Positions 5,840-39,771 of a stretch of 64,000 nucleotides of DNA are shown in pieces. The notes under the pieces are model-generated. The model was not told the origin of the DNA and ran no database searches. It saw nothing but the letters and a program-made list of their open reading frames with translations. Both the position numbers and the translations under genes were made by a program. The DNA lies in contig WHVD01000034.1 of the NCBI GenBank assembly GCA_015178975.1, positions 434,001 through 498,000 on the forward strand. Reading direction: 5' to 3'. Positions within the stretch are counted from its first letter, which is position 1, and every line of letters starts with the position of its first letter. Source of the DNA: Hysterangium stoloniferum. Its lineage: Eukaryota > Basidiomycota > Agaricomycetes > Hysterangiales > Hysterangiaceae.

Positions 5840-5840
5840 G

Positions 5841-8900: not shown

Positions 8901-11900
8901 TACCCCCAATCCAGTCGACTTATGAAAGAGGATTTGACTATTATCTATGGCAGAAGGGACCCTCCGGGTGGATATTCCAGTATTGGGATTTCAGCATTAC
9001 ATGTCTACGGATGCGTAGGGAATTCAGAAGCCTCAAATCCTATTAAAATCAGGCTGGACACCGGAGCTGACCTCTCCTTAATCTTGGAGGATTTCTATAA
9101 GGAACTAGAGGACCGCCCTAAACTCAAGCAAGGACTCAAGCTGTGCCTCGTACAACTTACCGGTAATGCCAAAGTATTAGGATACATCAACGTCCCCATT
9201 TATCTTGAGGATGACACCGGTATACTCCTCAAATTTACCGCGGAGATGTACGTTGTCCAAGGTATGACCGTCCCGATCCTTCTTGGAGAAGACTTTCACA
9301 TGAACTATGAGATCGGGACACTGCGAGACCAACCGCTGGGTTCCAGATTGATTTTGCCTGGGAGAGCAGGATCTATTCCAGCCAGTTCTTCCAAGGAGCC
9401 ACAGCCTTTAACCTTTTCAATTAGCAAGATCCCCTTTGAGGAATTAGCCAATGACTCGTCTGAATTGACTTCCAAACCAGACAAAGGAGTGTGTACTGAA
9501 AGAGTCACACGGGCCTCGCAAGATTGTACTATAGAACCGGAATCAGCTCGATTAGTACCAATCTTTGTAGGAGATCTTATTGGTGACCAATGGATAGTCG
9601 AGGGAGTTGTCTTACAGAACGACGATGTGAGTATACTAGCTGCTCCCACCACCGCCATCTCTAGGGAACGTGCCACGATACCTCTCGCTAATCCCTCTCT
9701 GACGCCAAGAATCATCAGACAAGGGGAAACCGTTGGATTAATTCACGACGTGAACAAATGGGCCCAGACTCCTAGATCTTCGACTGAGAGGGCATCAATG
9801 CAGTTGACGGCAACCAAGATCGCCCATCTCGTCGAAGGTCTATCAAGAATAGAAGAGGAACGTGTCCTTAATCCTCAATCTTCCGGGCTGCCCCTGGAAC
9901 GGGAACTCGCAGACGATTTCGACCCGGCAGGCCCCAAAACGTCAGAAGTTGCCACCACGGAAACGTTTCACGTGGAAGATCTGCATAAGCTAGTTAATTT
10001 AGGTCCTGACATCCCTACCGACGTCTCCTCCCGCTTGGAGTCAGTATTAACTAAGAACGTCCTAGCTTTTGGAGTAGACAGGCATTTAGGACAAGTAGAT
10101 GTCAAGGTCAATGTCCCCTTAAAAGATGGCGCACAACCTATTTCAATGTCAATGTTTCCAACCTCCCCGGCTAATAGGAAAGTCATTGATGAACAAATGG
10201 ACACTTGGTTCCAACAGGGAGTGATTGAACCGTCCAAGAGTCCTTGGGGGGCACCAGCCTTTGTCATCTATCGCAGTGGGAAACCATGAGTAGTGATTGA
10301 CTATAGAAAGTTGAACAGCCTAACGGTTCCCGATGAATTTCCGCTGCCGCGTCAATCGGAAATCATGCAAGCGCTCTCGGGATCCAACATCTTATCTTCC
10401 TTCGATGCACTAGCTGGTTTTACCCAACTTGAAATGTTAGAGGAAGATAAGCCGAAGACAGCCTTCAGATCCCATCGAGGACTGTGGCAATTCCGGAGAA
10501 TGCCCTTTGGACTTCGTAATGGACCTTCTATATTCCAAAGGGTTATGCAAACCGTACTTGCACCCTACTTATGGATATTCTGCCTAGTTTATATTGACGA
10601 CATCGTGATCTTTTCTAAGACATGGGACGATCATCTAGAGCATTTGGACCAGGTCCTACAAGCCATCATTGCAGCGGGAATCACTCTCTCACCCAAAAAG
10701 TGCTACGTGGGGTATAATTCGATTCTACTACTAGGACATAAGGTGTCTAGACTCGGCTTTTCGACCCATCAAGAAAAGGTTGCCGCTATATTGGAATTAG
10801 CCACACCTTCTAAGATAGCAGACCTTCAACGTTTTCTCAGAATGGTTCTGTACTTCTCTGCTTACATACCATTCTACTCCTGGACGGTTGCTCCACTTTT
10901 CAACCTCTTAAAGAAAGGCGTTCGTTGGCATTGGGATTCAGAACACGCCCGAGCTTTTGAAGACATCAAAGTTGCGTTGAGTTCAGCTCCAGTACTTGGA
11001 CACCCTGCGAGTGGTATGCCTTATAGGTTATACACAGACGCTTCGGACTTCGCGCTGGGATGTTGCCTCCAGCAAATACAAAAAATGACGCTTAAGGACC
11101 TAAAGGATACGAAAATTTATGCCCAAGCAAGGACAGCTTTCGATCAATCACGAGACGTCCCCATTTTTGTTACTCATTATAAAACCAAGGATCCGGAATT
11201 CACCTGGACGGATTCCTGGGCCGCAGATTTTGATGACACCAGTGTCACAGTTGAACACGTTATTGTTAAGAACTGAAAACTGACTATTGTCGGTGGCCGA
11301 CAGGGACCGATCAGAAGGACTTGGCTTCAGCTTATGTGCTGCACCCTCGCAAATATCCGTAGGATGTCCTTAAATTTCGGGCGGGCAAAGACTAATCCTA
11401 GTGAGTACCTTTCGGCGTGATACCGATTGGAATCGAAGGACAAGTCGAGCGTCGGGCCAAGGGGTCGGGGCCGGGAGTGGGCGAGCGCACACGAAGGCGG
11501 ATGGGGGGATTCTTAGTATGAGACTGATACAGGCGTATGAGGGTATTCTGAGTCGATATTCTGATTGCCTAGTAACTACAACTACAGCGGGTTCATATAC
11601 AAGTAACAGGCATCTGGAAATTACTAATGGGGAGAAGGGCGGAACACGGTATTAACAATAAGCTTGACTAGGAACGGGAAGTTTATGATTAGTTCGGAGG
11701 CCGATGATAACCGAGAGTGGGATTACGATAAAAGGAAATAGTTCAAGGACTACAAATATAGCTAGACATATGCGAAACATAAGATTGGACGGATCAACAT
11801 AATAAAGGGGACATATCAAAGTTTGACCAGACAATACGAGTTATTTTGACGTGGGCGTAAATGGAGTTTGATCTTCGCGAAAACATTCGTCAGCTTCGGG

Positions 11901-14049
11901 GCCAATGGTTTCCGAGAGGGTGACTTGAAACGTTGACAAGTGGCGATAACCTCGGGACCGATAGGGTTGCGACACGGTCGTAATAGTTATCGCCTATTGG
12001 AGCCGTACGCTCAAGAAAGCGGAATGTAACTACTCAGCCACAGAGCGAGAAGCATTAGCTGCTAAAGAAGGATTGGTCCATTTCCAGCCCTTTATCGAGG
12101 GAGAACATATCCTTTTGATCACTGACCATGCGGCATTACAATGGGCCAGATCTTACGAGAATACTAATCGTAGACTGGCCGCATGGGGGGCAGTATACGC
12201 TGCATACCCCGGTCTGGAAATCCTACATAGAGCAGGATGGATACACAGCAACGTTGACCCATTATCTAGACTTCCTCGAGTACCTGACTGTGCTAGCCCC
12301 GCGAGAGATGATCTCTTACCAATCGTAGCGGATTCTTATAACTGGAACGACAACGAGACGTTATGGGAGAACAAACCAGTGGAAAAGGCCGTCTTTCTCA
12401 CTCATCACGAGTTAGTTGAACCTGTCAGAACAGTCGAAGAGGTCCCCCAAATGAAATGAAACTTGCACAACCTTCCCAGAAACGATGAGACTGATGAGGC
12501 GGATTTTACTCTCTCGAATCCACAATTGCTTATAGAGATCGATGAGAATTACGCTAAGGAACTTCACGATGGATACCAGAAAGATCCCACCTTCAGGAAT
12601 TATTACGCCGCCGATCCCACTTCTCCAAACATGGTAGCCACTCCTTCGCATTATTTTATCGGCAAGAATAAGCTATTGTTCTTTCGAGATTCGGACTGGA
12701 AAAGTCGAATCTGCATTCCTAGCAGCATGACGACAACCATACTCAAGCTGATACATGATAATCCTTTCGAAGGAGCTCATGCAGGCGGCCACAGGCTTTT
12801 TAATCTGATGAAAGACCATTTCTTCTGGCCGAGGATGTTGCATGACTGCGTGGCGTATGCTCGCAGCTGCGACATATGCCAGAAAACTAAAATTGATCAT
12901 TCCGCTTGACAAGGAGCTCTTCGACCTGCGGATGTACCCCTAAGGCCGTTTGAGGTTGTCTCAATGGACCTGATTACCGGATTGCCTCCTTCTACAGAGG
13001 GTGGTTATTCCGCCATCTTCATCGCCGTGGATAAACTCACATGTTTCTTAATTTGTGAACCCACTACTTCAGATCTATCCGCAGAAGGATTCACGCGAAT
13101 CTTTGTGAATAAAGTAGCCGCTCCTTTCGGCCTGCCTTCAAGGATAATCTGTGATCGAGACAAGAGATGGACCTGTAGGTTCTGGAGAGAAGTCTGCAAA
13201 GTATATGGAAGTGCCCTTGCAGTATCCTCATCCCACCATCCTCAGACCGACGGTCAAATGGAGAATGCTAATGCAATTGTGGAGCAAATGCTTAGAGCGT
13301 ACTGCGCCTCTTCAAAGGAGGAATGGTCTAAATGGACTCAAGTAGTGGCTCATACCTACAATTCGACGGTTCAAAGCTCAACAAGCTATGTGCCGGCCTT
13401 TTTGCTGATGGGCTACTTACCAAGAGGAATGTCTAGCTGTCTAGGAGGGGACGACCCTGTGGTCCCCAGAGAATTATCGGATAGCCCTGTAGCCGACCAA
13501 TGGATCTTAGAATTGGAAAATCACCGACAAGCGGCGCGGGATTCGATTGCGCGAGCACAAGAAACCCAAGCTCGCAGTTACAACAAGAGATGGAGATTAG
13601 TGGAAGATATCTCAGAGGGGGATTATGTTCTGATTAATCCCCATTCTCTTGAGCTCGTCGAAACCAAGGGACCTGGAAGAAAACTTATACAAAGACGGAT
13701 AGGGCCGTTTGAGGTCTTGGAAAAGATCAATCCTCAAGTCTTCCGACTCCACATTCCCTCGGAATATCAATTACATCCAGTGATTAATTGAGACCATCTT
13801 AAAAAGTACCACCTCTCCCCTAAGGAATTCGGATCCAGGGAGCTACTCAAGAACCCTCAAGAACTCAATCGTAACGACAAGGAGTATGAAGTAGAAGCTA
13901 TAGTAGGGCACAAAAAGCATCGAAATCGACTCCTTTTCCAGGTTTGATGGAAAGGATATGGACCGGAGGAGGACACTTGGTTAAACAGCAATGACCTTCG
14001 TAACGCTCCCGCTCTTCTTAGAGCTTACAAGACTATTTATCGAATTTAA
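5916..14049 (+). pseudogene. Element A gag-pol polyprotein (11 in-frame stops)
   Basis: One continuous frame runs from ATG 5916 to TAA 14050, allowing for the 727-nt solo-LTR insertion. Domains in order: gag capsid; CCHC zinc knuckle CWICGSLEHFKIDC (8232-8273); aspartic protease DTGA (9057); reverse transcriptase with YIDDIVIF (10590); RNase H, split by the solo LTR and resuming at about 11991 (TDHAALQWA); integrase HHCC with CDICQ (about 12780-12890); DDE core (SMDLITG, ICDRD, QTDGQMEN); chromodomain YEVEAIVG...WKGYGPEEDTW (13887-14010). Stops are at 7539, 7590, 7815, 8010, 8193, 8664, 10287, 12457, 12907, 13789 and 13945. Nine are TGA, several in positions where CGA (Arg) is expected. Non-functional copy. 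Confidence 0.92.
11264..11985 (-). mobile_element. Solo LTR, C family, TSD GTTAT
   Basis: On the plus strand it starts TGTTAAGAACTG and ends CACGGTCGTAATA (one C-to-T change from TAACA). It is flanked by GTTAT at 11259-11263 and 11986-11990. It sits in the RNase H domain of element A in reverse orientation. The same family occurs intact at 38731-39473. Confidence 0.9.
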
Positions 14050-14164
14050 TGATCATTTCACATCCTTACGACGACAACACTGTTTATCTACTTCTAGCTC
14101 TACCCCCCCCACTTTCTTCCCCCTCGGCCTTTCACTTCAATAACTGAGCGGAGCTTGAAATTAA

Positions 14165-14172
14165 TATAAAAT
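14165..14172 (+). promoter_or_regulatory. TATA-like box upstream of element A downstream ORF
   Basis: TATAAAAT lies about 75 bp before the ATG at 14246, after a pyrimidine-rich stretch and outside the LTR. This suggests, without proving, that the downstream ORF has its own promoter. Confidence 0.35.
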
Positions 14173-14245
14173 ACGTAAATTCGCTAAAGAAAATTTCATT
14201 CCCCCTATCTCTTCCCTCCACGTCAACCTCTCTAATCAGTACACT

Positions 14246-16148
14246 ATGTCGCAGGAGCAACAACCCAAACCCAAGTTCCCCAACTTCAAAAGAATACCAC
14301 GACCTCAACCTATTAATACCTCTACCATGCCGTCTCGTACTGAACAAGTCGAGCACTCCACGAGTAATTCTGGAACGCCTTTGCCAATACCCTCCGCTGC
14401 GCAGGGCGACATCATGGGAACGTCCACCAACTCGCGGAACGGAACCGCCTTTACTCCATACGCTCCTCTTCCCAGACCCCGATTTCCCAATTTTAAAAGA
14501 ATACCTCGACCTCAAACTACAGTTCCTTCTGCCCCATCACCTCGAACAGAAACTGTCGAGCGCGTGGAGGAGACCTCATCGTCCACAAATCCTACGCGGA
14601 CGGACTCCGTTTCAAAAGCTGCACCATGGTCCTCTAATACTTGGGGGGCTCCCTCGGGAACATGGAGTGAAACCCCACCACCTTCTCGTAGTATTTTCCC
14701 TTCTACCGAAGAGGAGATCAAAAGGAAATGGCAGTCTGAGGCTTTTTCCGCGCAGGTTCAGGAGGAATTGAAAACGCTTAAACGGAAGAGGAGAGAGGAG
14801 TACTTGGAAGGACAGCGGAGGATGGGGGCTAGGGATAATGTCCCTTCAAGGCAGACACGGCAGGAATGGAGGAAAATGGAAGGGCACGATAATCCTTCAA
14901 TCATTGCTCCCCCTTTGGGTCATAAATGGACGGATTTCACTGAAACGGATTGCAGCGACGGGGGCACGCCATGTGTTCGGAGTGTAGGACAAAAAAGTAG
15001 GAAAGGAAAAGATGGGGTCACCTTCTACGATTGGGACAAAGTACGAAGGATCAAATTACAAAGCATTACATTGCGACGTGGAGATGGAGTTGCATTACCT
15101 CCCAGAACCCTTTCACAACGTGGACCTCAGGAACGGACCTACCGGATGGGGCCCAGTGATCTTTCATCTGACTCGGAGGATGACCAATCTCACTACCCCA
15201 CCTACGACAGCAAGTACCTCAGTGCTGACTGCCATGAAGGTTTCCTACTCCCTGACAACATTCACTTCTTCACGAGTGATCCTAACCAACGACGAAAGCT
15301 ACCAACTTCCATCAGAGTTTGGAGAGGGTATCGTCCAGCAGACTCTGCAACCCCATCCACTTCCTCTCATCTCCCTCCACCTCTGCCGGTCTCTTCCGTA
15401 CCCACATTACAGCGCTTTACACCCTTTTTGGAGCTACCGGGAAGTCTTGTACCATCCTCCAAGCTGTCTTCTCTTCCCCCTATACCACTACCCCTCCCCT
15501 TCGCAGGACATTCTCTTATATCACCGTCCTCATCCATACCCAAGCCTCCTCCAGCACCGCAGCCAATCTCACCCCTCCGCACATCACCTGACCCTCTCAT
15601 CGCCTCCCACTCTACTCCGACGCCTTTGGTCCCTGCGGTGTCTAACATTCCCCTCACTTCCTTGACAACGCGGAGTCCACCGCCCACCTCTCCCTACTCC
15701 CCTTGCATTTCTCTGGGAAGCCCCATTCAGCATCCTAACGATACATTAATGGATATTGATCACCCTATCCCGGACGTTCTCGCAACGCCTATGGAGGAAG
15801 TCCTCGAGAGGAATCCCCTCTGGGGGAGACATGAGCTCCACACCGCTCATCACTCCTACCCCGCCATCACTACACCCTCGACCCCCTCTCATTGCCCGTA
15901 TAACTGACACTTCCGCTGATCGCGTTCACGCCATAATTCGAATGCGCCAGAAGGCCTACGGTCATTGGGTCTCGTCGATCCAAAAACTAGATGGGTTGAC
16001 ATCCGCCAATGACGCTTCGAGGCGGGAGGACATCACTCTTTCCTTTCATGCCAAGCGTCTCGCCTGGGGTAATGCTATCCTACACCTTGGGGGTTCATCG
16101 CAGGATGCATGGGGAGGAGTTCCAAGTGTCCTTCGACATCTTCTTTGA
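14246..16148 (+). pseudogene. Element A accessory ORF downstream of integrase, unrecognised
   Basis: A 553-codon open frame (14246-15907) starts about 200 bp after the integrase/chromodomain stop. The N-terminus has two copies of FPNFKRIPRPQ about 60 residues apart. A charged, probably helical segment follows (EEEIKRKW to EEYLEGQRR), then a Pro/Ser-rich stretch. Near 15840-15880 the sense appears to shift to another frame that stays open to 16148, just before the polypurine tract, with RVHAIIRMRQKAYGHWVSSI. The original product was therefore probably about 630 residues. It has no signal peptide or transmembrane span, so it does not look like an envelope. I do not recognise it. Confidence 0.55.
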
Positions 16149-16161
16149 CATAGCTCTTCGA

Positions 16162-16173
16162 CCGGGGGGGCAC
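16162..16173 (+). promoter_or_regulatory. Element A polypurine tract
   Basis: A CCGGGGGGGCAC run lies directly upstream of the 3' LTR and is the only purine-rich tract there. It is the expected plus-strand primer of an LTR retrotransposon. Confidence 0.55.
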
Positions 16174-16803
16174 TGTGAGAGGTATGGCGAAATACACTCA
16201 GGAAATATAGTCGGATGAACTCTTACTATATTTCCTTTATTATTTCTAATTTCTCTCTTTTATTATATCTATAATTAGTTCGACGACCTATGTATGCGGT
16301 ACATCGACTCTTGTGGGCACACACACGCCAGACTTATGTATTCTAGCACCCGTAGTTTAGAACTCAGACACTTTTTACACCGCAACCACGACTTACCCAG
16401 ACACCCATTAGTGTCCTGTAAGTTGTGATTGGTGTATCGTCTCGACCGTCACAGACGGGCTTTAGCTATCTACTCTATCAGAGTTTCAAACTGTACCAGT
16501 CAAAACTCAATCCTCATCGCTACTCGCATGGACCACATCCACGCTATTCTATTATTCGACTCTCTAGTACTCTACTTTACTCTCGAGCAGTCGTTCAGAA
16601 TCGCACTAGACAGTCGATTCTACTTATTCGTTTTAGCTCTCTACCTTATTCTAGATAGCTACTTCCTTCTACCGTATTGAACTGAGTAGTCAATACGCAT
16701 TCGTTCTGTATTAGACTTCGACAGTCAATACATCTTGGTGTCGTACCTAAACGGTCGATATTCTTCGTATATAGAACAGTTAGAACTTCCACCACTCTTC
16801 ACA
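16174..16803 (+). repeat. Element A 3' LTR
   Basis: 630 bp, colinear with the 5' LTR. The differences I see are mostly CpG against TpG or CpA (for example GGGCGCACAC against GGGCACACAC). Confidence 0.95.
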
Positions 16804-17216: not shown

Positions 17217-17389
17217 CATGACAACTTATTCTATGAGTTTATATTTAATTACCTGAAATTTCATCTTTAAAATATGCATGCCTTTTTAAAATACACACAA
17301 ATGACATAGTTACACAAGATTATTTGGGTTAACCTAGATTATTTGGGTTATGACTTAATCTTTGGGTTATGATGTATTCTCTTGTATAT

Positions 17390-18194
17390 TGTTACGACCG
17401 GACAAATCCCGCCAGACTCCGGGCACTAACTCGTATGCCCCCACGCGCTACAAGCACCAATCGTCTGTTTATAGGATTTCCCGCCCGGACTCCGTTACGT
17501 TCGACCTCATTAAGACACATATCAGTCACCGGACTTCCCCCGGACCCCGTCTCTGTCTATGTCCGTCTTCGTCCCACGCATCAGTCACCGGAACCCGCTT
17601 AGAATCCCGTCACCACTCTAATCGAGCCCCATTCCCGTTTTAGTCAAATGACCTGTCACGATTTAGGACTCCACTCCCGCTCCGTTTCCCGTTATGGGTT
17701 ATGCTTTGTCACGATTCGGACTCCGCTCCGTTCCGTCCCGTTCCTAACACCAATTTGGTGTTTACTATTCCCGTTTTATGTTTTGCTCGTTTCGTCTCAT
17801 TATTACTGGATTCGGTATGTCATGCATTCCACGGTCTATATAAACTGGCAGATGTTGTACATACAATCCAGTCAGAAAATTAGCTTAGATTCCCCCCAGT
17901 AATCTAATACATTTTCCTCTCTAAAAACCTACTCTTATCAGACCGCTCGCACTAGTCGGAGCGCACGGGCTCCGGCGCATCTATCTCTCTCGACTATCTC
18001 GATTCACGACTCTCGACTCACGACCTACGACTCACGACCCACGAACCCCCGCCCGGACTCCCCGGGATTCCCATCCGCCTGTCTGAAATTGGACAACACG
18101 ATCTAGCGAGGGCGCAGCCTATAAGCTGAAGCCAAGTCCTACCAGATATCCCACAGGTTTCTCCGGAAACCCGGCCTGAGTGTGTATCCTAACA
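17390..18194 (+). repeat. Element B 5' LTR
   Basis: 805 bp, TGTTACGACCGG to GTATCCTAACA. The R/U5 part includes the ACGGTCTATATAAACTGG promoter-like stretch, the ATAAGCTGAAGCCAAGTCCT motif at 18121-18140, and a GGTTTC...GAAACC hairpin close to the end. No canonical tRNA primer-binding site follows: the next bases are GTATTTTCTGAC. Confidence 0.95.
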
Positions 18195-18230
18195 GTATTT
18201 TCTGACTAATACTCGCAGATTGTTTTCATT

Positions 18231-19520
18231 ATGCCACCAAGAAGAAGTACACGCACACAGTCATCAATGCCTGGATTGTCGACTCTTCATTCCCCGTTAA
18301 CTCTGTATACCAGTCAGACGCTTGCGAACCAGTCGGAACCCATGGAAGAAGCCCGCATCAAAGAAATCCCGGAAGACCTGGACGAATCCGAGCACGAGGA
18401 CGATTCCGTGGCCCCCGACAAGGGCAAAGGTGTCGAAATCCCTCCTGAAAATCCTCCGCCTTTTCAACGACCGAACACGAGGGATCCTACTTCTGAGTTT
18501 TTAGCAGGTACTATAGATAAATTCATGACGCACCTGCTAGAAGAACGAAAAAGAAAGGAACAAGAACCTCCACGGTCAAAAGTCAATGCTCCGGAACCCT
18601 TCACGGGTTCCAACCCAAACAAACTCTCTACTTTCCTCATGCAATGTCGCTTCAATTTCCGCGATCGTGCCGCTGCATTCTCCACGGACTCCCGAAAAGT
18701 CAACTACGCACTTTCATATTTGTCGGGATCCGCGTTGAAATGGTTCGAACCGGCTTTTAGCGGGATTACCGAGGAAGAGCCGCTCTGGCTTGAAAATTGG
18801 GAAGCTTTTGTTGAGGAGCTTGAAACCAACTTCGGCCCGTATGACCCGACAGGAGAAGCCGAGAATAGTCTCACAAATCTTCGTATGAAGGACACGCAGC
18901 GCATCACGGACTACATCGTCCAATTCAATAATCTTGCAGCTCGTTGTCAGTGGGGCGATCCCGCTCTCCGCCACCAATTCTACGCCGGTCTGCCGTCCCG
19001 CCTTAAAGACGAAGTCTCGAAAGGAGAAGATGGCAAGCCAAAAACCCTGTCCCGTATGCGCCTCAAAGCTCAAAACGTGGACGCACGTTATTGGGAACGT
19101 CGCGCGGAAGTTGCCCGCGAGACATCCGCGGACAAAATAAACAAGTCCAAGGACAAAAACAATAACACCAATTCGTCAACCAGCAACCAGAACTCCACGC
19201 AATCCGACAAGAAGAACGATAAAAAGTCTTCAAACAACAACAACAATAAGGACAATAAGGACAACAACAAGGGTCAACAGTCCGGCAAGCAAGCCGGAAA
19301 ACCCGACCTCTCAGGCAAACTCGGACCTGATGGCAAATTGACTCCACAAGAAAGACAACGTCGTATGGACAACAACCTCTGTCTCTTGTGCGGGAAACCC
19401 GGTCATCGAGTCCCGGAATGTCCGCTGGCAAAAGCAAACTCTTCAAAGGGTCGATCAGCCAAGGCCTCCACGGATACCCCGTCGAAGGACAAACTGGCTG
19501 CCGATTCGAAAAAAGAGTAA
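18231..19520 (+). CDS. gag: Element B Gag
   Basis: Intact 429-residue frame. The N-terminal half is acidic (about residues 45-75). The capsid region follows, with SGSALKWFEP and the retrotransposon-gag signature LTNLRMKDTQRITDYIVQFN. An Asn/Lys/Asp-rich low-complexity linker leads to one CCHC zinc knuckle, CLLCGKPGHRVPEC, near residue 385. The product would form the virus-like particle and bind element RNA. The ATG at 18231 is 36 bp after the LTR and is the first in frame. The stop at 19518-19520 is preceded by an A6 run and followed by a GC-rich hairpin, which suggests Gag is the main product and Gag-Pol is made by frameshifting. Confidence 0.93.
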   Translation: MPPRRSTRTQSSMPGLSTLHSPLTLYTSQTLANQSEPMEEARIKEIPEDLDESEHEDDSVAPDKGKGVEIPPENPPPFQRPNTRDPTSEFLAGTIDKFMTHLLEERKRKEQEPPRSKVNAPEPFTGSNPNKLSTFLMQCRFNFRDRAAAFSTDSRKVNYALSYLSGSALKWFEPAFSGITEEEPLWLENWEAFVEELETNFGPYDPTGEAENSLTNLRMKDTQRITDYIVQFNNLAARCQWGDPALRHQFYAGLPSRLKDEVSKGEDGKPKTLSRMRLKAQNVDARYWERRAEVARETSADKINKSKDKNNNTNSSTSNQNSTQSDKKNDKKSSNNNNNKDNKDNNKGQQSGKQAGKPDLSGKLGPDGKLTPQERQRRMDNNLCLLCGKPGHRVPECPLAKANSSKGRSAKASTDTPSKDKLAADSKKE

Positions 19521-19555
19521 GCAACCCCGCGGGCTCCGCGCGGGTTAGGGGTTGC
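19508..19555 (+). promoter_or_regulatory. Putative -1 ribosomal frameshift signal (gag to pol)
   Basis: G AAA AAA in the gag frame at 19508-19514 is followed by a 6-nt spacer ending in the gag stop TAA. A hairpin with an 8-bp perfect outer stem comes next (GCAACCCC 19521-19528 with GGGGTTGC 19548-19555) and a further GC-rich inner stem. Moving back one base continues into the pol frame (KRVSNPAGS...). The spacing matches known -1 frameshift sites, although the first base is G rather than A. Confidence 0.65.
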
Positions 19556-22500
19556 GTTGCCTCTCCGCGCATTCAAGAGTTCACTCGCCTCAATGCATCC
19601 GCTTTTTCACATTCTGATTCATTTTTCGTTAAACTTATGTCTAATATGATCCCGAAATTCGTTTTTTCAGCTCTCATAGATTCTGGCTCGACTCATTGTT
19701 TTTTAGATACAAAATTCACGCAAAAAAATTCTTTGTCAACTTATTCGATAAATCCCGTCGGTCTCCGCCTCTTCGATGGCACAAGTAATTCGGTTGTTAC
19801 CCAAGCTTGTGATTTACCCATCAGTTTCCCTTGTGGAACATCCCAATTGGTCACTTTCTATGTGACCCAGTTAGACTCAAGTTGCTCAGTGGTTCTAGGA
19901 CATAACTGGCTTACCCGCTACAATCCATTGATTGACTGGATAGCTAACAGTATAACATTCCGGACTCCCGCGGCGACCGAGGAAACTGCGCCTGTCTCAG
20001 CCTCCATGGCACCCATGGCCTTCCCGGCACCTGCAGTCTCGAGGACTCCTGTGATCCCTACGGAACCTACAGCTTCCCCGGAACCCACGGCACCTCTGTC
20101 CATTTCTCTGATTAATGCTGCAGCTTTTATTAGGGCTTCAAAAATGGATGGGTCCCAGGCGTTCACTATCAACTTAAAAATTGATGAAGCAACTGGACGT
20201 TTCTCAACCCCAGTATCCGAATCTGAGCAAGCTGCTGACCTAGAAGGCGTCCCGGAGAAATACCATGACTTCGCGGATGTTTTTAGCAAGCGAAAAGCTG
20301 ACCGGCTTCCGCCTCACAGAGAATACGACTTAAAAATCGATCTTGAAGATGGCGCCCAGCCACCCCTAGGACATATTTACCCGCTTTCATCCACGGAACT
20401 ATCCGCAATCCGTGATTTCCTGGATGAACATTTGTCCATAGGTTTTATTCGACCCTCAAAGTCTCCTTTTGGAGCACCTGTTTTATTTTTCAGAAAAAAG
20501 GATGGATCCCTTTGACTATGTGTTGATTTTAGAGGACTCAATGCTGTCACCAAAAAGGACAAATATCCACTCCCACTTATATCTGACCTGCTTGATGCTC
20601 CGCGGAATGCCCAGATTTACACCAAAATAGATCTCAAGCACGCCTATCATTTGGTCCGGATTGCCGCGGGCGACGAATGGAAAACCACTTTTAGAACCCA
20701 CTATGGGGCCTTCGAGTGGTTGGTCATCCCTTTTGGACTCACTAATGCCCCGTCTGTTTTTCAGCGTTTTATCAACGACATTTTCTCCGACATGCTCGAT
20801 GTATGCGTCATTGTTTACTTGGACGACATTCTTATCTACTCCGAGAATCCCGCGGAACACGACAAACAAGTCCGTGAGGTTCTCCGGAGGCTCAGACAAC
20901 ATGGTTTATTCGCAAATGGTAAAAAATGTACTTTTGACACGGACTCCGTGGAATACCTAGGTTTCATGATGGGACCCGATGGACTCGGCATGGACGAAAC
21001 TAAAGTACAAGTCATCAAAGATTGGCCCGAACCCCGAAAAGTTAAAGATATACAATCCTTCCTCGGCTTTGCCAATTTTTATAGACGTTTTATCCGTGGA
21101 TATTCCGACATCACGGTACCCCTTACCCGTCTTACGCGTAAGGGTACTCCGTGGAACTTTAACGATAAGTGTCAAAAAGCTTTCAATCTTTTAAAAAATT
21201 CTTTTTCCACAGCTCCTATTCTGTCGCATTGGAAACCGGACTTCCCGCTCATTGTTGAAACGGACGCCTCCGACTATGCACTTGGAGCCATTCTCTCTAT
21301 CCAGGACTCCGACGGAGAAGTTCACCCCGTGGCTTTTCTGTCCCGGACTTTTACCGGAGCAGAGCTCAACTACGACGTTCATGATAAAGAACTTCTGGCA
21401 ATCTTTTCAGCTTTCAAAGCGTGGCGACACTATTTGGAAGGTTCAGGAGCTCCTATTGACGTTGTAACAGATCACAAAAACCTGGAATACTTTTCTACCA
21501 CAAAACTCTTGACCCGCCGGCAGGCCCGCTGGTCTGAATATCTCTCCGCCTTCAACATGATTATCCGTTTTCGACCCGGCCGTCTCGGCGGCAAACCCGA
21601 CGCTTTAACTAGACGATGGGACGTCTATCCTAAAGAGGGGAGCAACGACTATGCAACGGTAAATCCGCACAACCTGAAACCTATTTTCACGAATCAACAA
21701 CTTACCGCATCGGTCTGCGCAACTTTCCTCGTCAATCCCATTGTCCGTGGAATTATCATTATGGATATCGAGAAGTTACATCAAGATATTCTATCGGCAA
21801 TTCCCCTAGACCCCATTACTAAAGCTCATCTAGACAATCCCGTGGACCCCGATCAACCTCGGTGGTCTCTTGATCAACATGGTTTCATTAGACTTGACGA
21901 TCGTATCTATGTACCGGACTCCGACGGCCTCCGCCTCAGGATCCTTCAATACAAACATGATCATCCACTCTCAGGACATTTCGGGTACAACAAAACTCTA
22001 TCATTAATAAGAAGAGAATATACTTGGCCCGGACTCCATGGATTCGTTAAGCACTATTGTAAATCTTGCACTACTTGTCCCCGCTCGAAATCTCAGCGAC
22101 ACAAGCCATACGGCCTTTTGAAACAACTCCCGGTACCGGAACACCCGTGGAATTCTATATCTATGGATTTCATTGAACACCTACCGGATTCCGAAGGCTT
22201 TTCTGCTATTCTAGTCGTTGTTGACAGATTCTCAAAACAAGGTATATTCATCCCTACTTATGATACAATTACGTCCGTGCAGTTAGCGGAACTTTTCATT
22301 ATCCACGTATTTTCCAAGCACGGAGTTCCGTCCCACGTGACTTCCGATCGAGGATCAGAGTTCGTGTCTCACTTCTTTAGATCCCTCAGAAAATCCTTGG
22401 ACATGACATTACATTTCACGTCCGGACATCACCCGGAAGGTGACGGACAAACCGAACGCGTCAACCAGACATTGGAACAATACCTCCGCGTATATTGCAA

Positions 22501-23245
22501 CTATCAACAGGACAATTGGAAAACCTTGTTACCACTTGCAGAGTTTGCTTACAACAATGCACCCTCGGCCACTACTGGCGTTTCCCCGTTCTTTGCAAAT
22601 AAAGGATATAATCCAAATATTACAGTACATCCAGAACGAAATCTCGCCTCTGTTCGTGCTCAAGAGTTCACCACGGACCTCCACGAGCTCCACGAGGAAC
22701 TCCGGACTGCAATATTGTCCGCCCAAGAGCAATACCAACATTCAGCGGACAAACACCGGATCCCGCCACCAAACTTCAAGATTGGCGACCATGTTTATGT
22801 CAAAGCTCAATTCTTCCGGACTACCCGTCCATCAAAGAAGCTTGCTGAAAAATATTTAGGTCCTTTTGAAATTATCGCACAAGTAGGTTCAGTTTCTTGG
22901 ACTCTACGGCTTCCGGATAGCATGCACGCGGTACACCCGGTATTTCATGTCTCTATGCTAGAACCTTGTACTGCTAACACTATCCCGGATCGCGTGCAAT
23001 CTCCACCTCCTCCTGTCGTCATTGACGGAGAACCCGAGTTTGAAATCTCTCAGATTTTAGATTCAAAAATTGACAAGCGTCGACGCACTTGTAAACTGCT
23101 TTACTTGGTCAAGTGGGCGGGTTACGAGGGCACCGATGAAGAAACCTCATGGATTTTGGCCACGGAACTCGGTAATGCCACGGAAATTGTTACTGACTTT
23201 CATACAGCTTACCCACTCAAACCTGGACCATTATCGTCTCTCTGA
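19515..23245 (+). pseudogene. pol: Element B Pol (PR-RT-RH-IN-chromodomain), one stop
   Basis: The pol frame lies -1 to gag. Domains: aspartic protease ALIDSGSTHCFLD (about 19670); reverse transcriptase with VYLDDILIYSE (YLDD at 20816); RNase H with ETDASDYALGA and TDHKNLEYF; integrase zinc-binding HPLSGHFGYNKT...CKSCTTC (about 21960-22080) and DDE core (SMDFIEHLP, VTSDRGSEF, HPEGDGQTERVN); GPF module LAEKYLGPFE; chromodomain LYLVKWAGYEGTDEETSW (about 23100-23160), which targets heterochromatin in chromoviruses. The frame is broken only at 20513-20515, where CTT TGA CTA TGT replaces an expected Arg codon (CGA to TGA). Apart from that single transition the element looks complete. Confidence 0.93.
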
Positions 23246-23678
23246 CCGCACTCCGCGGACCCCGTGTTACGTTTGGACTCATTTTCATTATTCCCTGTCG
23301 CCCTATGTCTCTCTTTGCTTTTACAGGTTCTGACATGTCTGGTCAAGTCTTCAAGCGGACTCTCCATGGACTTTGGCTTTGACTTTTATTTTTCTTTCAC
23401 GCTTTACTTTATGTTCAATTACTTTCTATTTCTATGTTACTTTTTCAGTCTACATTTATGGGACTGTTCTTTTTCCCTGCTTCCTCAGCTATCTCCTCTG
23501 GGAGCTCCGCGACCTCCGCGGCAACCCCGTCCTCATCCGATCCGGCATCCTCGGAACTCCCGACTTGCGGCTCCTTATATACATAGCCGCCATACTCCGC
23601 CAGGAACTTCCAAAACTCCTCGCGTAGTCCAGACAGCTCCTTGGCCACCACAATTTGGACCTTGTTGCTCTTCCGGAG

Positions 23679-24966
23679 TGTAATGTATTCAGGGGATTCT
23701 CTTAGATAGCTCAATATATGCTATAGTGTCACAGATCTTCAACAATAAAACAAGCAAAGGTCCAGTAATTTAAATACTGATAGATTAATGAGCTGCGCTA
23801 TGAAGCTTAAACAACTCAAATCAATGCTTATTTTGATTATTGAAAGGTTCAATAGAACTGTGTATGACTCTTTTAGCAAATACAAGAACTATTCCTTGAG
23901 AATAGGGGCTGGAAGCTGAATATATGCGCAGTAACTTGGCAGAGACTTGATATAAGAGCTTCGGATTCTTGTATGCTTATTTGTAACTATTAATAGTTAT
24001 TTAACAAGGTGTTAAATAATTTATTAATAGAGAAAATAAATTGTATTGGATTATCTGAGTGCTTGTACTTGATTAATTCAATAAACTTAGGGCTGGGCCT
24101 TGAGTAATCTAGTATTGGCAGGGATTTCAGTAAGGATACTTAGATACTTATTAGGTTTATTATCTAATTAATAAGCCTAAAGGGTAGCTGTAAGACTGGG
24201 GAACTTAGATGACTAAGTCCAAGAGTTGCTGACAAAGATTCAAGATGCTGCAAGTGTAGGTGCTTGCAGTTAGTGTATCAGACTAAGGCTATTATTGTCC
24301 TTAGGATGATGAGGTAAGCTTCTGTGCTGTACTGTAAAATGTGTGTGTGATAGATTTTATTGGAAACTTGGCCCTCCTTATATACATTTTGACAACTCAA
24401 TGATTAGCTAACTATTTAGTTTATGAGGTCATTAGTGAGATCATAATGACCTCATATTCTACTCATTATTTACCCTTTGTTTAACATGTGATTCCCTTCT
24501 CTGAGACAAGGGTTCTAACCTCTTGCTTGAACATGAAGGTTCAAGGCCGCGGTCCCGGGACGGAAGCAAACGATGAGTCGGCGGAACCTAATAATGACTC
24601 GGGTAGTCACGTTCGTGACTTGTGTGACTCGGGTAGTCACATTCGTGACCTTTGTGACATCCCGACACTGGAGGCTTATGTAATAAGTCACATGACTCCA
24701 AAAATGCGCAAACTAGGCTGCACAAGGTGCCGAAAGGTAATAACTAAGTAAATAAAATATAAATAATTAGTTAAAAATTATAATAAATTAACTAAGATAT
24801 AATAGCATAATATGAGTTCATATATGCTATTATTTATGCGAAGTTAAAAGGAATAAGGCCTATTTTTCACAATAAACATAATAAAAATACAATAGAAATT
24901 CGAGAAAATATTAAATAATTCAAAGAAAATTAAGAGAATATTATGAGATAATGTTGATACATCACA
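23679..24966. mobile_element. Solo LTR, family D (1288 bp), TSD CGGAG
   Basis: The insert starts TGTAATGTATTC and ends ATACATCACA (TG...CA, imperfect terminal inverted repeat TGTRATGTAT). CGGAG is duplicated at 23674-23678 and 24967-24971. Removing it plus one duplication restores the reading frame of the antisense gene. It is AT-rich and carries no gene. It is unrelated to the A, B and C families and its orientation is undetermined. Confidence 0.85.
24596..24655 (+). repeat. 30-bp tandem duplication within solo LTR D
   Basis: Two copies of a 30-bp unit beginning GACTCGGGTAGTCAC. Each contains the small palindrome GTCAC-N4-GTGAC. Possible protein-binding sites in the LTR (inference). Confidence 0.6.
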
Positions 24967-25770
24967 CGGAGCAACTCGTTTTGGGCCTCGATGCCCTTGG
25001 CGATCCGTCCAAGGACCTCGTCCAACCCGGACAACCCATCCGTCCCGCTTATGTCTCGCGCCCCGGATCCCGTGGCCTGCTCGTGCACAAGCGAGCACCT
25101 CGCCTTGAGGTGCGCGCATTGATAACATCCCGGCCCCCGGCCGGCCTTTCGGTTGCATTCCGTGTTCCAGTCGTTGCAACCGGAACACCGCGGCTCGTTC
25201 CGCGTCGGAAGACGGACTGGCGCTGCTTTCCTTGCCTTCTGTTGATATGGTCAGTTTCCGCGGGTATTCCTTGGACATGAGGCCTACCTTTTGGGGGCTC
25301 TCTGGCTCCCCCTCGGACTCCGACTCCACCTCTGTCGCTTTGCGCTGAAAATCACAAGTCAGTAAAAAACCGACAAGTTGAATATTGGGACTTACCTTTC
25401 CCGCAACAATGGCGGCCCTCTCCGCGGCCAACCGGGCTTTCTCCGCAGCCACCCAGGCATTCTCCGCGGCCACTCGCGCAGCCTCCTCCACCTCACGTTC
25501 CCTCTCCTTTGCGGCCTCTTCCTCCACGGCCAATGCTTCCTGGTACTCTCTGTCCAGGGCCTCCTCAGCCTCCCTCGCCTCTCTCTCTGCTGCTTCACGA
25601 AGCTGGCGCTGCTCTTCTCGCCGCGCCAACAATTGGGCCGCCGTCCACGGCGCCCGATACGGAGTGCCCGTGGAGGGCCCTGCTGTCGGCATTGGCTTGC
25701 GTGGTGTTGGTTTTGGTCCCATAGTGATGAAGATGGGGGTAATAAAGAAGAAGAAATTTCTATTTTTTCA

Positions 25771-25784
25771 ATTTTTTATATAGG
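25771..25784 (-). promoter_or_regulatory. TATA region of the antisense gene
   Basis: On the minus strand CCTATATAAAAAAT lies about 50 bp upstream of the antisense ATG. The same block precedes the other two copies (GCCTATATAACAATTTG near 37797 and GCCTATATAAAAATTG near 42121) even though their coding parts are decayed. Confidence 0.6.
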
Positions 25785-25918
25785 CTCGTCGCGTTTGAAC
25801 CTTACCTTCCAGATCACATGACTCTTTGACACATACATGTAACCGACATGACTTTTGACACATGCGCGTAGCCGACAAGAACCTTATTTAGGTCTAGAGC
25901 CTCTTTGGGACTTCGGCA

Positions 25919-25932
25919 TAAAGGGAGGATAC
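25919..25932 (+). promoter_or_regulatory. Element B polypurine tract
   Basis: ATAAAGGGAGGATAC abuts the 3' LTR. The complement is kept beside the LTRs at 37649 and 42011 (GTACCCTCCCTTTA). Confidence 0.7.
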
Positions 25933-26737
25933 TGTTACGACCGGACAAATCCCGCCGGACTCCGGGCACTAACTCGTACGCCCCCACGCGCTACAAGCAC
26001 CAATCGTCTGTTTATAGGATTTCCCGCCCGGACTCCGTTACGTTCGACCTCATTAAGACACATATCAGTCACCGGACTTCCCCCGGACCCCGTCTCTGTC
26101 TATGTCCGTCTTCGTCCCACGCATCAGTCACCGGAACCCGCTTAGAATCCCGTCACCGCTCTAATCGAGCCCCGTTCCCATTTTAGTCAAATGACCTGTC
26201 ACGATTTAGGACTCCGCTCCCGCTCCGTTTCCCGTTATGGGTTATGCTTTGTCACGATTCGGACTCCGCTCCGTTCCGTCCCGTTCATAACACCAATTTG
26301 GTGTTTACTATTCCCGTTTTATGTTTTGCTCGTTTCGTCTCATTATTACTGGATTCGGTATGTCATGCATTCCACGGTCTATATAAACTGGCAGATGTTG
26401 TACATACAATCCAGTCAGAAAATTAGCTTAGATTCCCCCCAGTAATCTAATACATTTTCCTCTCTAAAAACCTACTCTTATCAGACCGCTCGCACTAGTT
26501 GGAGCCCACGGGCTCCGGCGCATCTATCTCTCTCGACTATCTCGATTCACGACTCTCGACTCACAACCTACGACTCACGACCCACGAACCCCCGCCCGGA
26601 CTCCCCAGGATTCCCGTCCGCCTGTCTGAAATTGGACAACACAATCTAGCGAGGGCGCAGCCTATAAGCTGAAGCCAAGTCCTACCGGATATCCCGCGGG
26701 TTTCTCCGGAAACCCGGCCTGAGTGTGTATCCTAACA
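25933..26737 (+). repeat. Element B 3' LTR
   Basis: 805 bp, the same length as the 5' LTR. Differences are almost all C/T or G/A at CpG. Confidence 0.95.
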
Positions 26738-27133
26738 TATATAAGCAAACTTTCAAATATATTTCATATAATTTAAATTTAGTTGGTTTAGAGAGTTAAC
26801 CAGAACTATCTGGGGTACCAATCCCCATTGTGCAATTTATTCCAAAAGAATAATCTACAGATGATTGTTTGACTAAATTCTGTCAGATATAGGATAAATA
26901 TTAATATTTTTGCATTCTTCAGAGTGATACCTAATCAACTGAATTTGATTAAATATTAATTTTACAACAAACAATATAAATATATATACTTTAGTGGATA
27001 AATAATTTTTAAAGTTTTGGGTTATCCTCCTAGATGATGACAAAAGGATACAAATTAAAAAAATGAATTTTTTGAAAACCAGATACCCTATGATAGTAAT
27101 CACCACACAATGCAAGCACACACTGTTTTTAAA

Positions 27134-28028
27134 ATGATGGAATCATTCTTCAATAACTTTACAGAAGAACAAGCTAAAATGGAGGAAAGAGTGACAAAAA
27201 ATTTTAATATACTTTCTACAAGAGAGAGTAAACTAATGAAAGAAATAGATTCCTTAAAACAATAGTTAAGTGATCAAAAAAAAACACAATAGAAACTATG
27301 GTGACTGAGAATTTATCATAAAGAAGCAAAAGGGCTGTATTATTCTAGATCTAGATAATGTAGGTATAATTGACTTAGAAGGATATAGACTTAATATTAA
27401 TGGTAATCCTAGAGCTTTATCTACTATTCATAGGTATAAGGATGACTTTGTTGATGTAGAGGAAATTTATTGTGGATATAACTTTATTACAGATAAAGAA
27501 AAGAAACAAAATAATGAAAATAATACATCTTCAGATACTAAGGTAGAAGATATTATAGATGATGACATAAAGCCAAAATCAAGTGCCAATTGGAGTTCCA
27601 ATTGGATTTCAAAGAATAAAGGAAAGAAACAAATAAATACTATAGAAAATTATGATACTAAGATAGATAAAGATAATGATACAGATGAAGATAATAATAC
27701 AGATGAAGATAATAATACAGATGAAGATAATAATACAGATGAAGATATTACTATAGATGAAGATGGTGATGTTATTATAAATGAAGATGGTGATGAGATT
27801 ATTATTACAACTGAGGGTCATATTATTATGACAGATAAAAATAATTACACTATAATTATCGATAAAAATAATCGCACTATTAAAGATGAGGATGGCTATA
27901 TTATGGATGTATATGATGATCTAGAACGTTCAATATTAAAATATAGAAAGAGAGCTGAAAAAGCAAGAGAAAAGAGAGGTACAGGTGATGGATCTGGATT
28001 GTTGTATAACACACTTCTCTTGACATAA
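27134..28028 (+). pseudogene. Unrecognised AT-rich ORF: coiled-coil start, acidic repeat middle
   Basis: An ATG at 27134 opens MMESFFNNFTEEQAKMEERV, a probable coiled coil, broken by TAG codons near 27266. A second long frame, 27309-28028 (240 codons), continues with GCIILDLDNVGIIDLEGY, a very acidic NNTDED repeat, and a basic end (RKRAEKAREKRG). The two parts are probably one gene split by a frameshift in an A-run. Codon use is extremely AT-rich, as in the transposase block at 28976-29589. If the 25-kb inversion is undone it lies upstream of the transposase-chromodomain gene on the same strand, so it may be the first ORF of that transposon. Family not recognised. Confidence 0.45.
27672..27743 (+). 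repeat. 18-bp tandem repeat (4 units) in acidic ORF
   Basis: Four copies of GATAATAATACAGATGAA (first copy with one change) encode the repeated acidic hexapeptide DNNTDE. Confidence 0.9.
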
Positions 28029-36169: not shown

Positions 36170-36810
36170 TGATGTATTAGCCTTATTTTAATACTATCTT
36201 CTGAAAAAGGAGTCCAGTGCTCTATCAAAATGTGAAAATACTCAATTCACTGCAAGGTAAAATAATTTAAGTATTTGATATTAATCAGTGGCAGCCTGAA
36301 TAGACTTAGAACCCCTGAAGTCAAGAGTTTACTTGAATATATGCACCCAACTTCGCAAAGAAGGTTTTGAGAGCCACTTTTGCAAGCTGTTCTTTTTCTG
36401 TGAAAACAACTACTAAAATATGAATAGCAATTCACTGATTCTGAAACTAGATTCGACTTTGATTCTAGCTAGTTTATATATATTTTATACTATTTATCAA
36501 ACAGTAAAAATATTTATAAACAGGTCAAAAGATTAGATATAGAATAAAACACTATTTGGCTAATATATGCTTTATTTACACTAACCTACAGGGTCTGCTG
36601 TGATAATAACTTATCAGGATCTTAATGTAGTCTTAAGGATCTTGCAAGAATATTCTCAGTATTTATTTATGCCAAAAACCAGGTAGAAATTAGAATATAT
36701 GTATTCCTAATCTCAATATAACCTAAAATATTTATTACTTTAATTGATAACCAACAACTCAACTAGAGGTGGATAAGTAATAAAGGATAGCCAGCTACTC
36801 AACTAAGAGG
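36170..36810. other. AT-rich spacer, nothing recognised
   Basis: About 640 bp between two B-family LTRs. It has short open frames only, no similarity to the retroelements and no RNA gene that I can see. Confidence 0.5.
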
Positions 36811-37648
36811 TGTTAGGGTACGTACACAGTGGGTCTCTGGAGAAACCCACGGAATATCCAGTAGGACTTGGCTTCAGCTTATAGGCTGCACCCTCACTAG
36901 ATCGTGTCATCCAATTTCAGACAGGCGGACGGGAATCCCGGGGAGTACGGGTGGGGGTTGTGGGTCGAGGGGTCATGGGTCAGAGGTCGTGGGTCGGAGG
37001 TCGTGGGTCAAGAGGTCGTGAGTCGAGATAGGTAAGAGAGATAGATCTGCCGGAGCCCATGGGCTCCAACTAGTGTGAGCAGTGTAATTCAAGTAGGAGT
37101 TTAGAGTGGAAAATGTATTATATTACTGGGGGGAATCTAAGCTGATTTTCTGACTGGATTGTATGTACAACATCTGCCAGTTTAAATAGACCATGGAGTG
37201 AATGACATACCAAATCCAGTAATGATGAAATGAAACTAGCAAAACATAAAACGGGAATAGTAAACACCAAATTTGGTGTTAGGAATGGGATGGAACGGAG
37301 CAGAGTCTGAATCATGACAAATCATAAACCATAATGGGAAATGGAGCGGGAGTGGAGTCCGAATCGTGACAGGTCATTTGACTAAAATGGGAACAGGGCT
37401 CTGTTAGAGGGATGATGGGTTTTCTGAGCGGGGTCTGGTGACTGAGGCATGGGATGAGGTCGGACATAGACAGGGATGGAGTCCAGTGGGTTTTCCGGTG
37501 ACTGAAACACAATGTAACGAAGTTGAATGTAGACAAGTCAGACGTACAGAGTCTGGTGGGAATTCCGGTAAACTGATAATGGGTGCATATAGGGTGCAGG
37601 TGTGTATAAGTTAGTGCCCAGAGTCTGGCAGGATTTCCAGTCATAACA
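36811..37648 (-). repeat. B-family LTR (3' LTR of truncated element)
   Basis: On the plus strand it runs from TGTTAGGGTACG to CCAGTCATAACA and is followed by GTACCCTCCCTTTA, the complement of the polypurine tract. No matching 5-bp duplication was found, as expected for a truncated element. Confidence 0.88.
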
Positions 37649-37857
37649 GTACCCTCCCTTTATGCTGAAGTCCCAAAGAGGCTCTAGACCTCAATAAGGT
37701 TCTTGTCGGCTACGTGCATGTGTCAAAAGTCATGTCAGTTACACGCATGTGTCAGAGAGTCATGTGATCTGGAAGGTAAGGTTCAGATGCGACAAGCCTA
37801 TATAACAATTTGAAAAAATGAAATTTCTTCTTCTTTATTACCCCCATCTTTGCCATT

Positions 37858-39583: not shown

Positions 39584-39771
39584 AAAATATAAAAGTTTAA
39601 TAATTTTTTGAACATAAAAGTAAAGCGTGAAAATCATAAGAATCAAAGTCAGCAGAAAATCTGCTTAAGGACTTGAAAACATGTCAGAACCTGTAAAAGC
39701 AAAGAGAGACATAGGGTGACAGGGAATAATGAAAATGAGTCCAAACGTAACACGGGGTCCACAGAGTGCAG

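Follow-up and report, generated by a model that had tools for sequence, protein, structure and literature searches.

A three-exon antisense gene encoding a Zn2Cys6-like protein in a Hysterangium stoloniferum chromovirus enriched in CGG-pair sites: a candidate self-recognizing regulator

The window analysed here, a stretch of 64,000 nucleotides (nt) from the genome of the ectomycorrhizal Agaricomycetes species Hysterangium stoloniferum (111 Mb, 554 contigs; positions 434,001-498,000 of one contig), contains a long terminal repeat (LTR) retrotransposon of the chromovirus type, which carries a three-exon gene on the antisense strand between pol and the 3' LTR. The antisense gene is real and is kept across the family, its protein is under purifying selection and holds six conserved cysteines spaced as in fungal Zn2Cys6 regulators, and the DNA of the element is enriched in paired CGG triplets. 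In our judgement, the product of this gene is rather probably a nuclear DNA-binding regulator that is specific to the element and recognizes its own family.

A sequence-only reading of the window had proposed this gene, and its coordinates, exon count, 49-nt second intron and length of 294 codons agree with the present analysis, the gene itself being borne out by comparison with 60 further copies. These copies comprise 20 of the first 40 genome matches and 40 of 150 listed matches; the loci L001-L010 were excluded from the counts, as L001 is the window copy and several others duplicate later loci. Because the set was picked by similarity from these matches, it leans towards an intact exon 3, and the share of intact genes given below is an upper estimate. 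In the window copy, the frame is split by a nested solo LTR, whose removal had been predicted to restore 294 codons. Copy L017, which naturally lacks the insert, matches this prediction: an ATG and 327 nt, a 49-nt intron, 57 nt, a second 49-nt intron and 498 nt up to the stop encode 294 residues, with nothing excised from the window copy.

Both introns start with GT and end with CAG in all 60 copies, and a CTRAY motif lies no more than 35 nt from the acceptor of each intron, again in 60 of 60, while only 11 of 44 interior dinucleotides in each intron are identical throughout the set. Intron 1 ranges from 48 to 64 nt in length. Exon 2 is 57 nt long in 59 copies and exon 1 is 327 nt long in 55, with frame-breaking lengths in the other five; after splicing, 45 of the 60 have an open frame, which encodes 294-298 residues. 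The introns are more divergent than the exons (mean distances of 0.098 and 0.109 versus 0.065, 0.030 and 0.066). Upstream of the antisense ATG, a TATATAA motif occurs within 80 nt in 58 of the 60 copies. The splicing of both introns is predicted by comparison of the copies. Neither exon junction matched the genome with up to 3 mismatches, i.e., no processed (spliced) retrocopy was found, the search with the exon 1 junction having no positive control; at the same tolerance, the unspliced exon 2-intron 2 boundary gave 212 genome matches.

The antisense gene is a regular component of the family. The 3' end of pol is matched beside it at all 60 loci, and an LTR is matched at 59 of them, which is the position of the plant antisense additional open reading frames termed aORF-3R. 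Approached from the opposite side, exon 3 is listed within 3.5 kb for at least 88 of the 100 best pol 3' ends; this number is a lower bound, because the 12 others include the window copy and four ends (contigs C35, C116, C223 and C453) with an exon 2-intron 2 boundary no more than about 1.5 kb away.

Several further observations concern copies and deposited sequences of the gene. Two proteins of Hysterangium stoloniferum deposited as hypothetical, P0001 and P0002, resemble fragments of the antisense gene, and the annotation of P0002 by others, in our reading, fuses exon 1 to exon 2 at the identical point. An older copy of the family (copy 2) lies on the opposite strand of the window at 36805-41164. 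The layout and the Cys cluster which had been reported for it are present, but this copy is decayed, its start codon is read as lost, and it has its own nested insert (about 38731-39473). A further fragment, at 42058-42358, is 70% identical and belongs to the same family; of the antisense gene, it includes the promoter and a portion of exon 1 alone. An unspliced frame of 341 codons in L072 (contig C222:54650-55750) was rejected as a distinct form, since it is an ordinary copy with a poly-T-expanded intron 1 and a 25-nt deletion in exon 3. Likewise, an early count of exon 3 indels (29 of length 1) is read as an alignment artefact at the stop codon and was superseded by reading on to the stop.

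The antisense protein is under purifying selection. Over all pairs of 44 distinct intact antisense genes, the ratio of nonsynonymous to synonymous differences (pN/pS) is 0.254, with values of 0.299 for exon 1, 0.145 for exon 2, 0.239 for exon 3 and 0.195 for the Cys cluster. For seven pairs with L017, pN/pS is 0.167-0.251, against means of 0.72-0.92 in mutation-matched neutral simulations, which fell at or below the observed value in none of 200 runs for six of the pairs and in a single run of 200 for the remaining one; neutral substitution, named beforehand as a pattern that would speak against the gene, is unsupported. The other two antisense frames give pN/pS of 1.07-3.92 in the seven pairs, and a product arising from intron 2 retention is therefore unsupported. 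In nine copies with both LTRs, pN/pS is 0.26 for the antisense gene, 0.28 for gag and 0.15 for the integrase-chromodomain part of pol; that is, the antisense gene is constrained about like gag and less than this part of pol. As a separate observation, L066 and L071 (contig C124, about 366-370 kb) have an antisense gene at a synonymous distance (dS) of 0.55 from L017 and an adjacent pol at just 0.14; apparently, subfamilies have swapped the antisense module, or it is evolving faster.

The only six cysteines of the L017 protein follow the pattern C-x2-C-x6-C-x9-C-x2-C-x6-C exactly. The Zn_clus domain has the spacing C-x2-C-x6-C-x5..12-C-x2-C-x6..8-C, into which the L017 pattern falls, and just 3 of 23,751 placements of six cysteines over 31 residues would fit it. 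Across the 60 copies, 359 of 360 cells at these positions hold Cys, so that the cluster passes the conservation check by which the proposal could have failed. In L017, residues 27-106 lack both Pro and Gly, and Ala, Glu and Arg abound; this stretch probably forms a long N-terminal helix. This stretch is followed by the basic run KKARK, the cluster CSGCNDRNTECNRKAGRGPGCYQCAHLKARC, a second stretch which is probably also helical, and an acidic C-terminal tail with a net charge of -10 over 40 residues. Within the second loop of the cluster, AHLKAR, the residues H171, L172, K173 and R175 are invariant in 45 of 45 intact proteins.

Relatives of the antisense protein were found only at home: protein database searches yielded two proteins, both from Hysterangium stoloniferum. 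The queries were a short insert-truncated version, which had no match, one that found both proteins but was swamped by helix words among 8000 scored candidates, and residues 105-290, which had one match. A scan of viral contigs confirmed no relative, and a PDB profile search up to E 10 listed seven sequences, none of them a zinc cluster.

According to PMC5559640, in the passages available, Zn2Cys6 proteins typically bind pairs of CGG triplets (inverted, direct or everted) as coiled-coil homodimers. The element was scanned for paired CGG because a Zn2Cys6-like protein predicts such targets. An initial motif test on the LTR was ambiguous, since pol was enriched too; comparison with host DNA then showed that the whole element is enriched. 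Per kb, the LTRs hold 6-7 inverted pairs CGG-N3-CCG, pol 2.7 and gag 0.8, and none is present in 20 kb of host flank. Among 832 inverted triplet pairs, CGG-N3-CCG takes first place in pol and second place in the LTR, and its rank is 148 in gag and 802 in host DNA; the top LTR pair, GGA-N-TCC, is the core of CGG-N3-CCG itself, and 3 of 300 LTR shuffles held any equally extreme triplet pair.

A full scan covered 53,248 ordered triplet pairs with spacers of 0-12 over the 5' LTR and internal region of L018 (7,280 nt). Here, CGG-N3-CCG ranks first (23 versus 2.5 expected) and CGG-N5-CCG second (23 versus 2.8), and the everted form CCGCGG is present 15 times versus 2.5 expected. The same two pairs rank 52,270 and 27,550 in host DNA and 2,485 and 20,137 in a different element from the window. 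In 1000 block-wise dinucleotide shuffles, the highest counts reached were 12 (N3), 11 (N5) and 9 (CCGCGG). As an internal baseline, inverted pairs at spacers of 30-202 have a mean count of 4.1 and a maximum of 9, which below spacer 30 is also topped by N7 (11) and N14 (12). The half-site CGGAC has a density of 6.3 per kb in the element, against 0.75 in host DNA and 0.89 in another element, and the preference is for CGGA and CGGG (22.1 and 13.6 per kb versus 6.35 and 5.9 in the host), not for CGGC or CGGT. CpG spacing was considered as a source of the signal and ruled out by context: of the 16 contexts CGx-N3-yCG, CGG..CCG alone is clearly enriched (23 versus 2.8), the next highest count being 6 versus 3.6. 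At N5, CGG..CCG is likewise enriched, and CGT..CCG is also raised (8 versus 2.4).

The enrichment extends into coding sequence beyond what codon usage yields. Against synonymous-codon shuffles, the window-copy pol holds 10 N3 sites versus 1.42 and 12 N5 sites versus 1.84 (0 of 1000 shuffles each), and the L018 pol holds 11 versus 1.91 and 15 versus 2.02, exceeding the maximum of 400 shuffles; N2, N4 and N6 counts in pol are at the codon-shuffle expectation. For gag, N5 sites number 5 versus 0.90 (0 of 1000). The sites within gag and pol fall in several codon phases, and their inner bases are varied. In the 45,219 nt of window DNA outside the family, only 4 N3, 6 N5 and 3 everted sites are present. 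The U3 region of the window 3' LTR holds five N3 sites and zero N5 sites. In ten other copies with both LTRs, U3 is free of N5 sites; its N3 sites number 4-5 in nine of these copies and 2 in the tenth. It was observed that N5, as enriched as N3 internally (L018 gag and pol), is absent from U3, i.e., there are two site classes in different places. Candidate target sequences of the protein are CGGACTCCG, CGG-N5-CCG and CCGCGG. The suggestion of the sequence-only reading that the protein could control the element gains independent support from this enrichment.

Based on these features, we infer that the antisense gene would be expressed from a TATA promoter of its own, in the direction opposite to gag-pol, and that its transcript would then be spliced. 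The introns, lying on the antisense strand, would stay in the genomic RNA and so survive transposition. The predicted protein would consist of a long N-terminal helix, a basic stretch resembling a nuclear localization signal (NLS), a Zn2Cys6-like cluster presumed to bind zinc, a second helix and an acidic tail, and it may bind CGG triplets pairwise as a dimer. The U3 sites have the antisense promoter on one side and the LTR promoter on the other, so that a single bound cluster could control gag-pol transcription as well as its own in trans. GAL1 and GAL10 have a shared control region serving two promoters, and the U3 arrangement may be similar by analogy. In addition, sites across the element body could tag the family for protection from silencing, much as with VANC in VANDAL elements. 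The acidic tail and the recent amplification of the family lead us to favour activation or anti-silencing over repression. In its full form, the proposal is that a retrotransposon with a spliced antisense Gal4-like regulator has filled its own DNA, coding regions too, with CGG-pair sites for self-recognition (activation or anti-silencing), and that the DNA-reading half of the zinc cluster has moved to the second position; to this we assign an even chance.

A number of observations weigh against this proposal. The Zn2Cys6 signature includes a basic recognition loop in the first half-cluster, but the first loop of the antisense protein, NDRNTE, is without the usual basic character and the K/R residues are found only in the second half. 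The protein scores 10.2 bits against Pfam Zn_clus (PF00172), under the gathering cut-off of 21. Weak Zn_clus matches were obtained for 26 of 28 members (P0001 and 27 of 34 distinct exon-3 products), all sub-threshold with a best E of 0.12, and hhalign against six known clusters returned a probability of 2.6% (E 0.017), although the six cysteines pair with the six cysteines. Formal Zn2Cys6 membership is thus unproven: of the cluster originally claimed, the exact spacing and the Cys conservation stood, and the Pfam score fell short. As for the sites, N3 is unremarkable in gag (1 versus 0.20, reached by 182 of 1000 shuffles), where N5 alone is in excess. Across seven related copies, the integrase-chromodomain part of pol retains paired triplets at a rate just above that of unpaired ones (189 of 210 versus 366 of 427), a difference that gives no clear sign of present-day selection on the sites. 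One simple dimer would need fewer arrangements than the two spacers (3 and 5) and the everted form seen here. Moreover, the copies in which the enrichment was measured belong to a single family and are closely related, and the controls were one other element and one host stretch. Regarding selection, the sense frame sharing third positions with the antisense gene also has a low pN/pS of 0.19-0.37, which exceeds the antisense value in seven of seven pairs. A low value is expected there, because it mirrors the same constraint, but it is still a caveat, sharpened by sense frames opposite exon 1 that are almost without stops.

Other explanations of the gene and the sites were also weighed. One is that a host Zn2Cys6 factor, recruited by the element, binds the CGG pairs, and that the antisense protein serves elsewhere, e.g., in assembly, RNA export or nuclear transport. 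Fungi possess many Zn2Cys6 factors, and the enrichment by itself is silent on which protein binds. However, the sites run throughout gag and pol, beyond U3, which a recruited activator would not need, and the element's own protein has the fitting Cys spacing and an invariant K/R loop, so we consider this explanation unlikely. Alternatively, the protein might be a repressor or copy-number controller which binds the LTRs to dampen its own family. Anatomy and sites would then be the same as for the favoured self-recognizing regulator, but the acidic tail is more like an activation domain, and the very recent insertions L018 and L028, with identical LTRs, indicate that the family has not been long shut down; a repressor is accordingly given a low chance.

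It is more doubtful that the protein, with the integrase chromodomain, tethers or targets integration to chromatin or DNA bearing CGG pairs, older copies included. The element does have a chromodomain, and several LTR fragments of the same family lie near one another in the window, yet the flanks of ten two-LTR copies (15,067 nt) contain just 2 CGG-N3-CCG and 1 CGG-N5-CCG. Very little probability was assigned to CGG-loop-CCG acting as RNA hairpins that package genomic RNA independently of the antisense protein. Inverted CGG..CCG with loops of 3 or 5 nt could make short stems, and 9 of 23 N3 sites have a complementary second flanking pair (about 6 by chance), but the adjacent flanking pair is complementary in just 5 of 23 for N3 and 4 of 23 for N5, the second pair for N5 in 5 of 23, a loop length of 4 is much less enriched (8 versus 2.9), and the loopless everted CCGCGG is enriched as well. 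Finally, a passenger or captured host gene (capture having been one suggestion of the sequence-only reading), or an antisense RNA with an incidental reading frame, would agree with the failure to find relatives outside Hysterangium stoloniferum in the protein database and viral-contig searches, but it is highly improbable and contradicted by a pN/pS far under neutral, by the family-wide retention of frame and splice sites, and by the adjoining pol in all 60 copies compared, among at least 150 genome matches listed.

The features of the window copy are summarized in the following table.

Table 1. Coordinates of the chromovirus and its antisense gene in the window.
Feature	Position	Strand	Description
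5-bp target duplication TATAT	17385-17389 / 26738-26742	.	flanks the element
5' LTR	17390..18194	+	805 nt, TGTTACGACC...TATCCTAACA; TATATAAA at 17837
Element-wide CGG pairs, window copy	17390..26737	.	27 CGG-N3-CCG, 19 CGG-N5-CCG, 14 CCGCGG, both LTRs and insert counted
gag	18231..19520	+	Pfam Retrotrans_gag 53.4 bits, Ty3_capsid 34.2, both over cut-off
pol: protease, reverse transcriptase (RT), RNase H, integrase, chromodomain	19331..23245	+	Pfam; in-frame stop in window copy
Antisense exon 3, part 2	23445..23678	-	remainder of putative helical stretch and acidic C-terminal tail to stop
Nested solo LTR, other family (TG...CA)	23679..24966	.	CGGAG 5-bp duplication; splits exon 3
Antisense exon 3, part 1	24967..25238	-	six-Cys cluster and beginning of putative C-terminal helical stretch
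Antisense intron 2 (predicted)	25239..25287	-	49 nt, GTAGGC...CAG; removal sets Cys-cluster frame
Antisense exon 2	25288..25344	-	57 nt; acidic; last codon opens basic run K|KARK (NLS-like)
Antisense intron 1 (predicted)	25345..25395	-	51 nt, GTAAGT...CAG
Antisense exon 1	25396..25722	-	327 nt; basic/Pro-rich N-terminus, then long charged stretch
Putative antisense promoter TATATAA	25777..25783	-	about 55 nt before ATG
3' LTR	25933..26737	+	TATA at 26380-26387; 16 of 805 positions unlike 5' LTR
Five CGG-N3-CCG in U3	25956..26268	.	at 25956, 26029, 26084, 26132 and 26260; between antisense TATA and LTR TATA

The element possesses a chromodomain after the integrase (PF00385, 28.3 bits versus a cut-off of 25.1), which places it among the chromoviruses of the Ty3/Gypsy group. 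A gag zinc knuckle, zf-CCHC_2, scores 19 bits, under the Pfam cut-off of 27. The nested insert of the window copy has no counterpart at the same place in the 20 copies compared first (L011-L030). An in-frame stop at 20513-20515 separates two long pol frames in the window copy. Because of this stop and the solo LTR within the antisense gene, the window copy is damaged and unlikely to be autonomous. The family is young: among ten other copies whose LTR pairs were aligned, those of L018 and L028 are identical over 821 positions with matching 5-bp duplications, and the remaining eight have 1 to 21 differences.

A second Gypsy-type element is present at 5207-16470 of the window, with 300-nt terminal blocks that are 98% alike, an integrase and a Tf2-like SH3 domain. 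Between its integrase and 3' repeat, a frame of 580 codons (14165-15907) lies on the sense strand; a Pfam scan at E 0.01 gave no match for it, and it is possibly another accessory gene. The window also contains a DDE_Tnp_4 transposase fragment (listed for 3300-3995) and an Asp/Asn-rich frame with repeats (listed for 27309-28028), the latter with no Pfam match at E 0.01.

For the plant antisense genes located between pol and the 3' LTR, PMC7264820 states that the roles have yet to be determined. For such a gene, the present element offers a candidate target, as its DNA is saturated with one site class fitting the Cys pattern of the protein, and the open question of the role becomes directly addressable through binding and reporter assays. 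If true, the self-recognizing regulator would also illustrate, in a natural case, how a retroelement can keep introns through an RNA intermediate by means of an opposite-strand gene, and how regulatory sites can be written within protein-coding sequence.

Antisense genes in fungal Gypsy elements are already known, as they are in plants. According to sentences citing Zhao et al. 2011, Boty-like elements of Botrytis cinerea and Sclerotinia carry the antisense gene brtn, and Boty, like the present element, is a fungal Gypsy element with gag, RT, integrase, a chromodomain and an extra antisense gene. The citing passages, which allow a comparison by description only, are silent on introns, a Cys cluster and self-directed sites for brtn. 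A plant review, in the part available, groups Boty with the antisense genes between pol and the 3' LTR. In plants, the aORF-3R genes include Grande gene23, RIRE2 and Retand TRP28 (passages of PMC7264820 and PMC11963269). They differ from the present gene in their plant hosts, and Retand is not a chromovirus. The words "zinc finger" and "intron" occur 0 times in the text obtained of PMC7264820, as do "zinc" and "intron" in that of PMC11963269, and the passages seen describe no enriched target motif. Presence in most copies and conservation like gag/pol, which characterize aORF-3R genes, are found here as well (at least 88 of 100 pol ends; pN/pS of 0.26 versus 0.28 for gag). In a limited search of open-licence PMC literature, neither a zinc-cluster antisense gene nor a spliced one was seen reported for such elements, and self-directed CGG sites were likewise not encountered. 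HBZ of human T-cell leukemia virus type 1 (HTLV-1) is a bZIP protein. It is mentioned in a passage of PMC11963269 and, compared by description, resembles the present protein as an antisense-encoded nuclear regulatory protein of an LTR retroelement, although it comes from an animal virus.

With Gal4-type Zn2Cys6 factors, as described in the available part of PMC5559640, the antisense protein shares the six-Cys spacing, a basic stretch, a downstream stretch predicted to be helical, and, as its putative target, the CGG-pair site class. Unlike them, it is sub-threshold in Pfam, has its basic loop in the second half of the cluster rather than the first, and is encoded by a retroelement. A close parallel for the sites is found in VANC, the anti-silencing proteins of Arabidopsis VANDAL DNA transposons (PMC5735166, PMC10398659), which are element-encoded sequence-specific binders; VANC21 is directed to VANDAL21 by motif density (PMC5735166). 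In both cases, a short motif is concentrated in its own family and scarce outside it, here with 23 N3, 23 N5 and 15 everted sites in the 7,280 nt of L018 versus 4, 6 and 3 in the 45,219 nt of window DNA outside the family. VANC21 motifs are described as mainly non-coding and often in tandem repeats, whereas the present sites are inverted CGG pairs lying also in coding DNA. VANDAL is a DNA transposon and the present element an LTR retrotransposon, for which anti-silencing is suggested by analogy with VANC.

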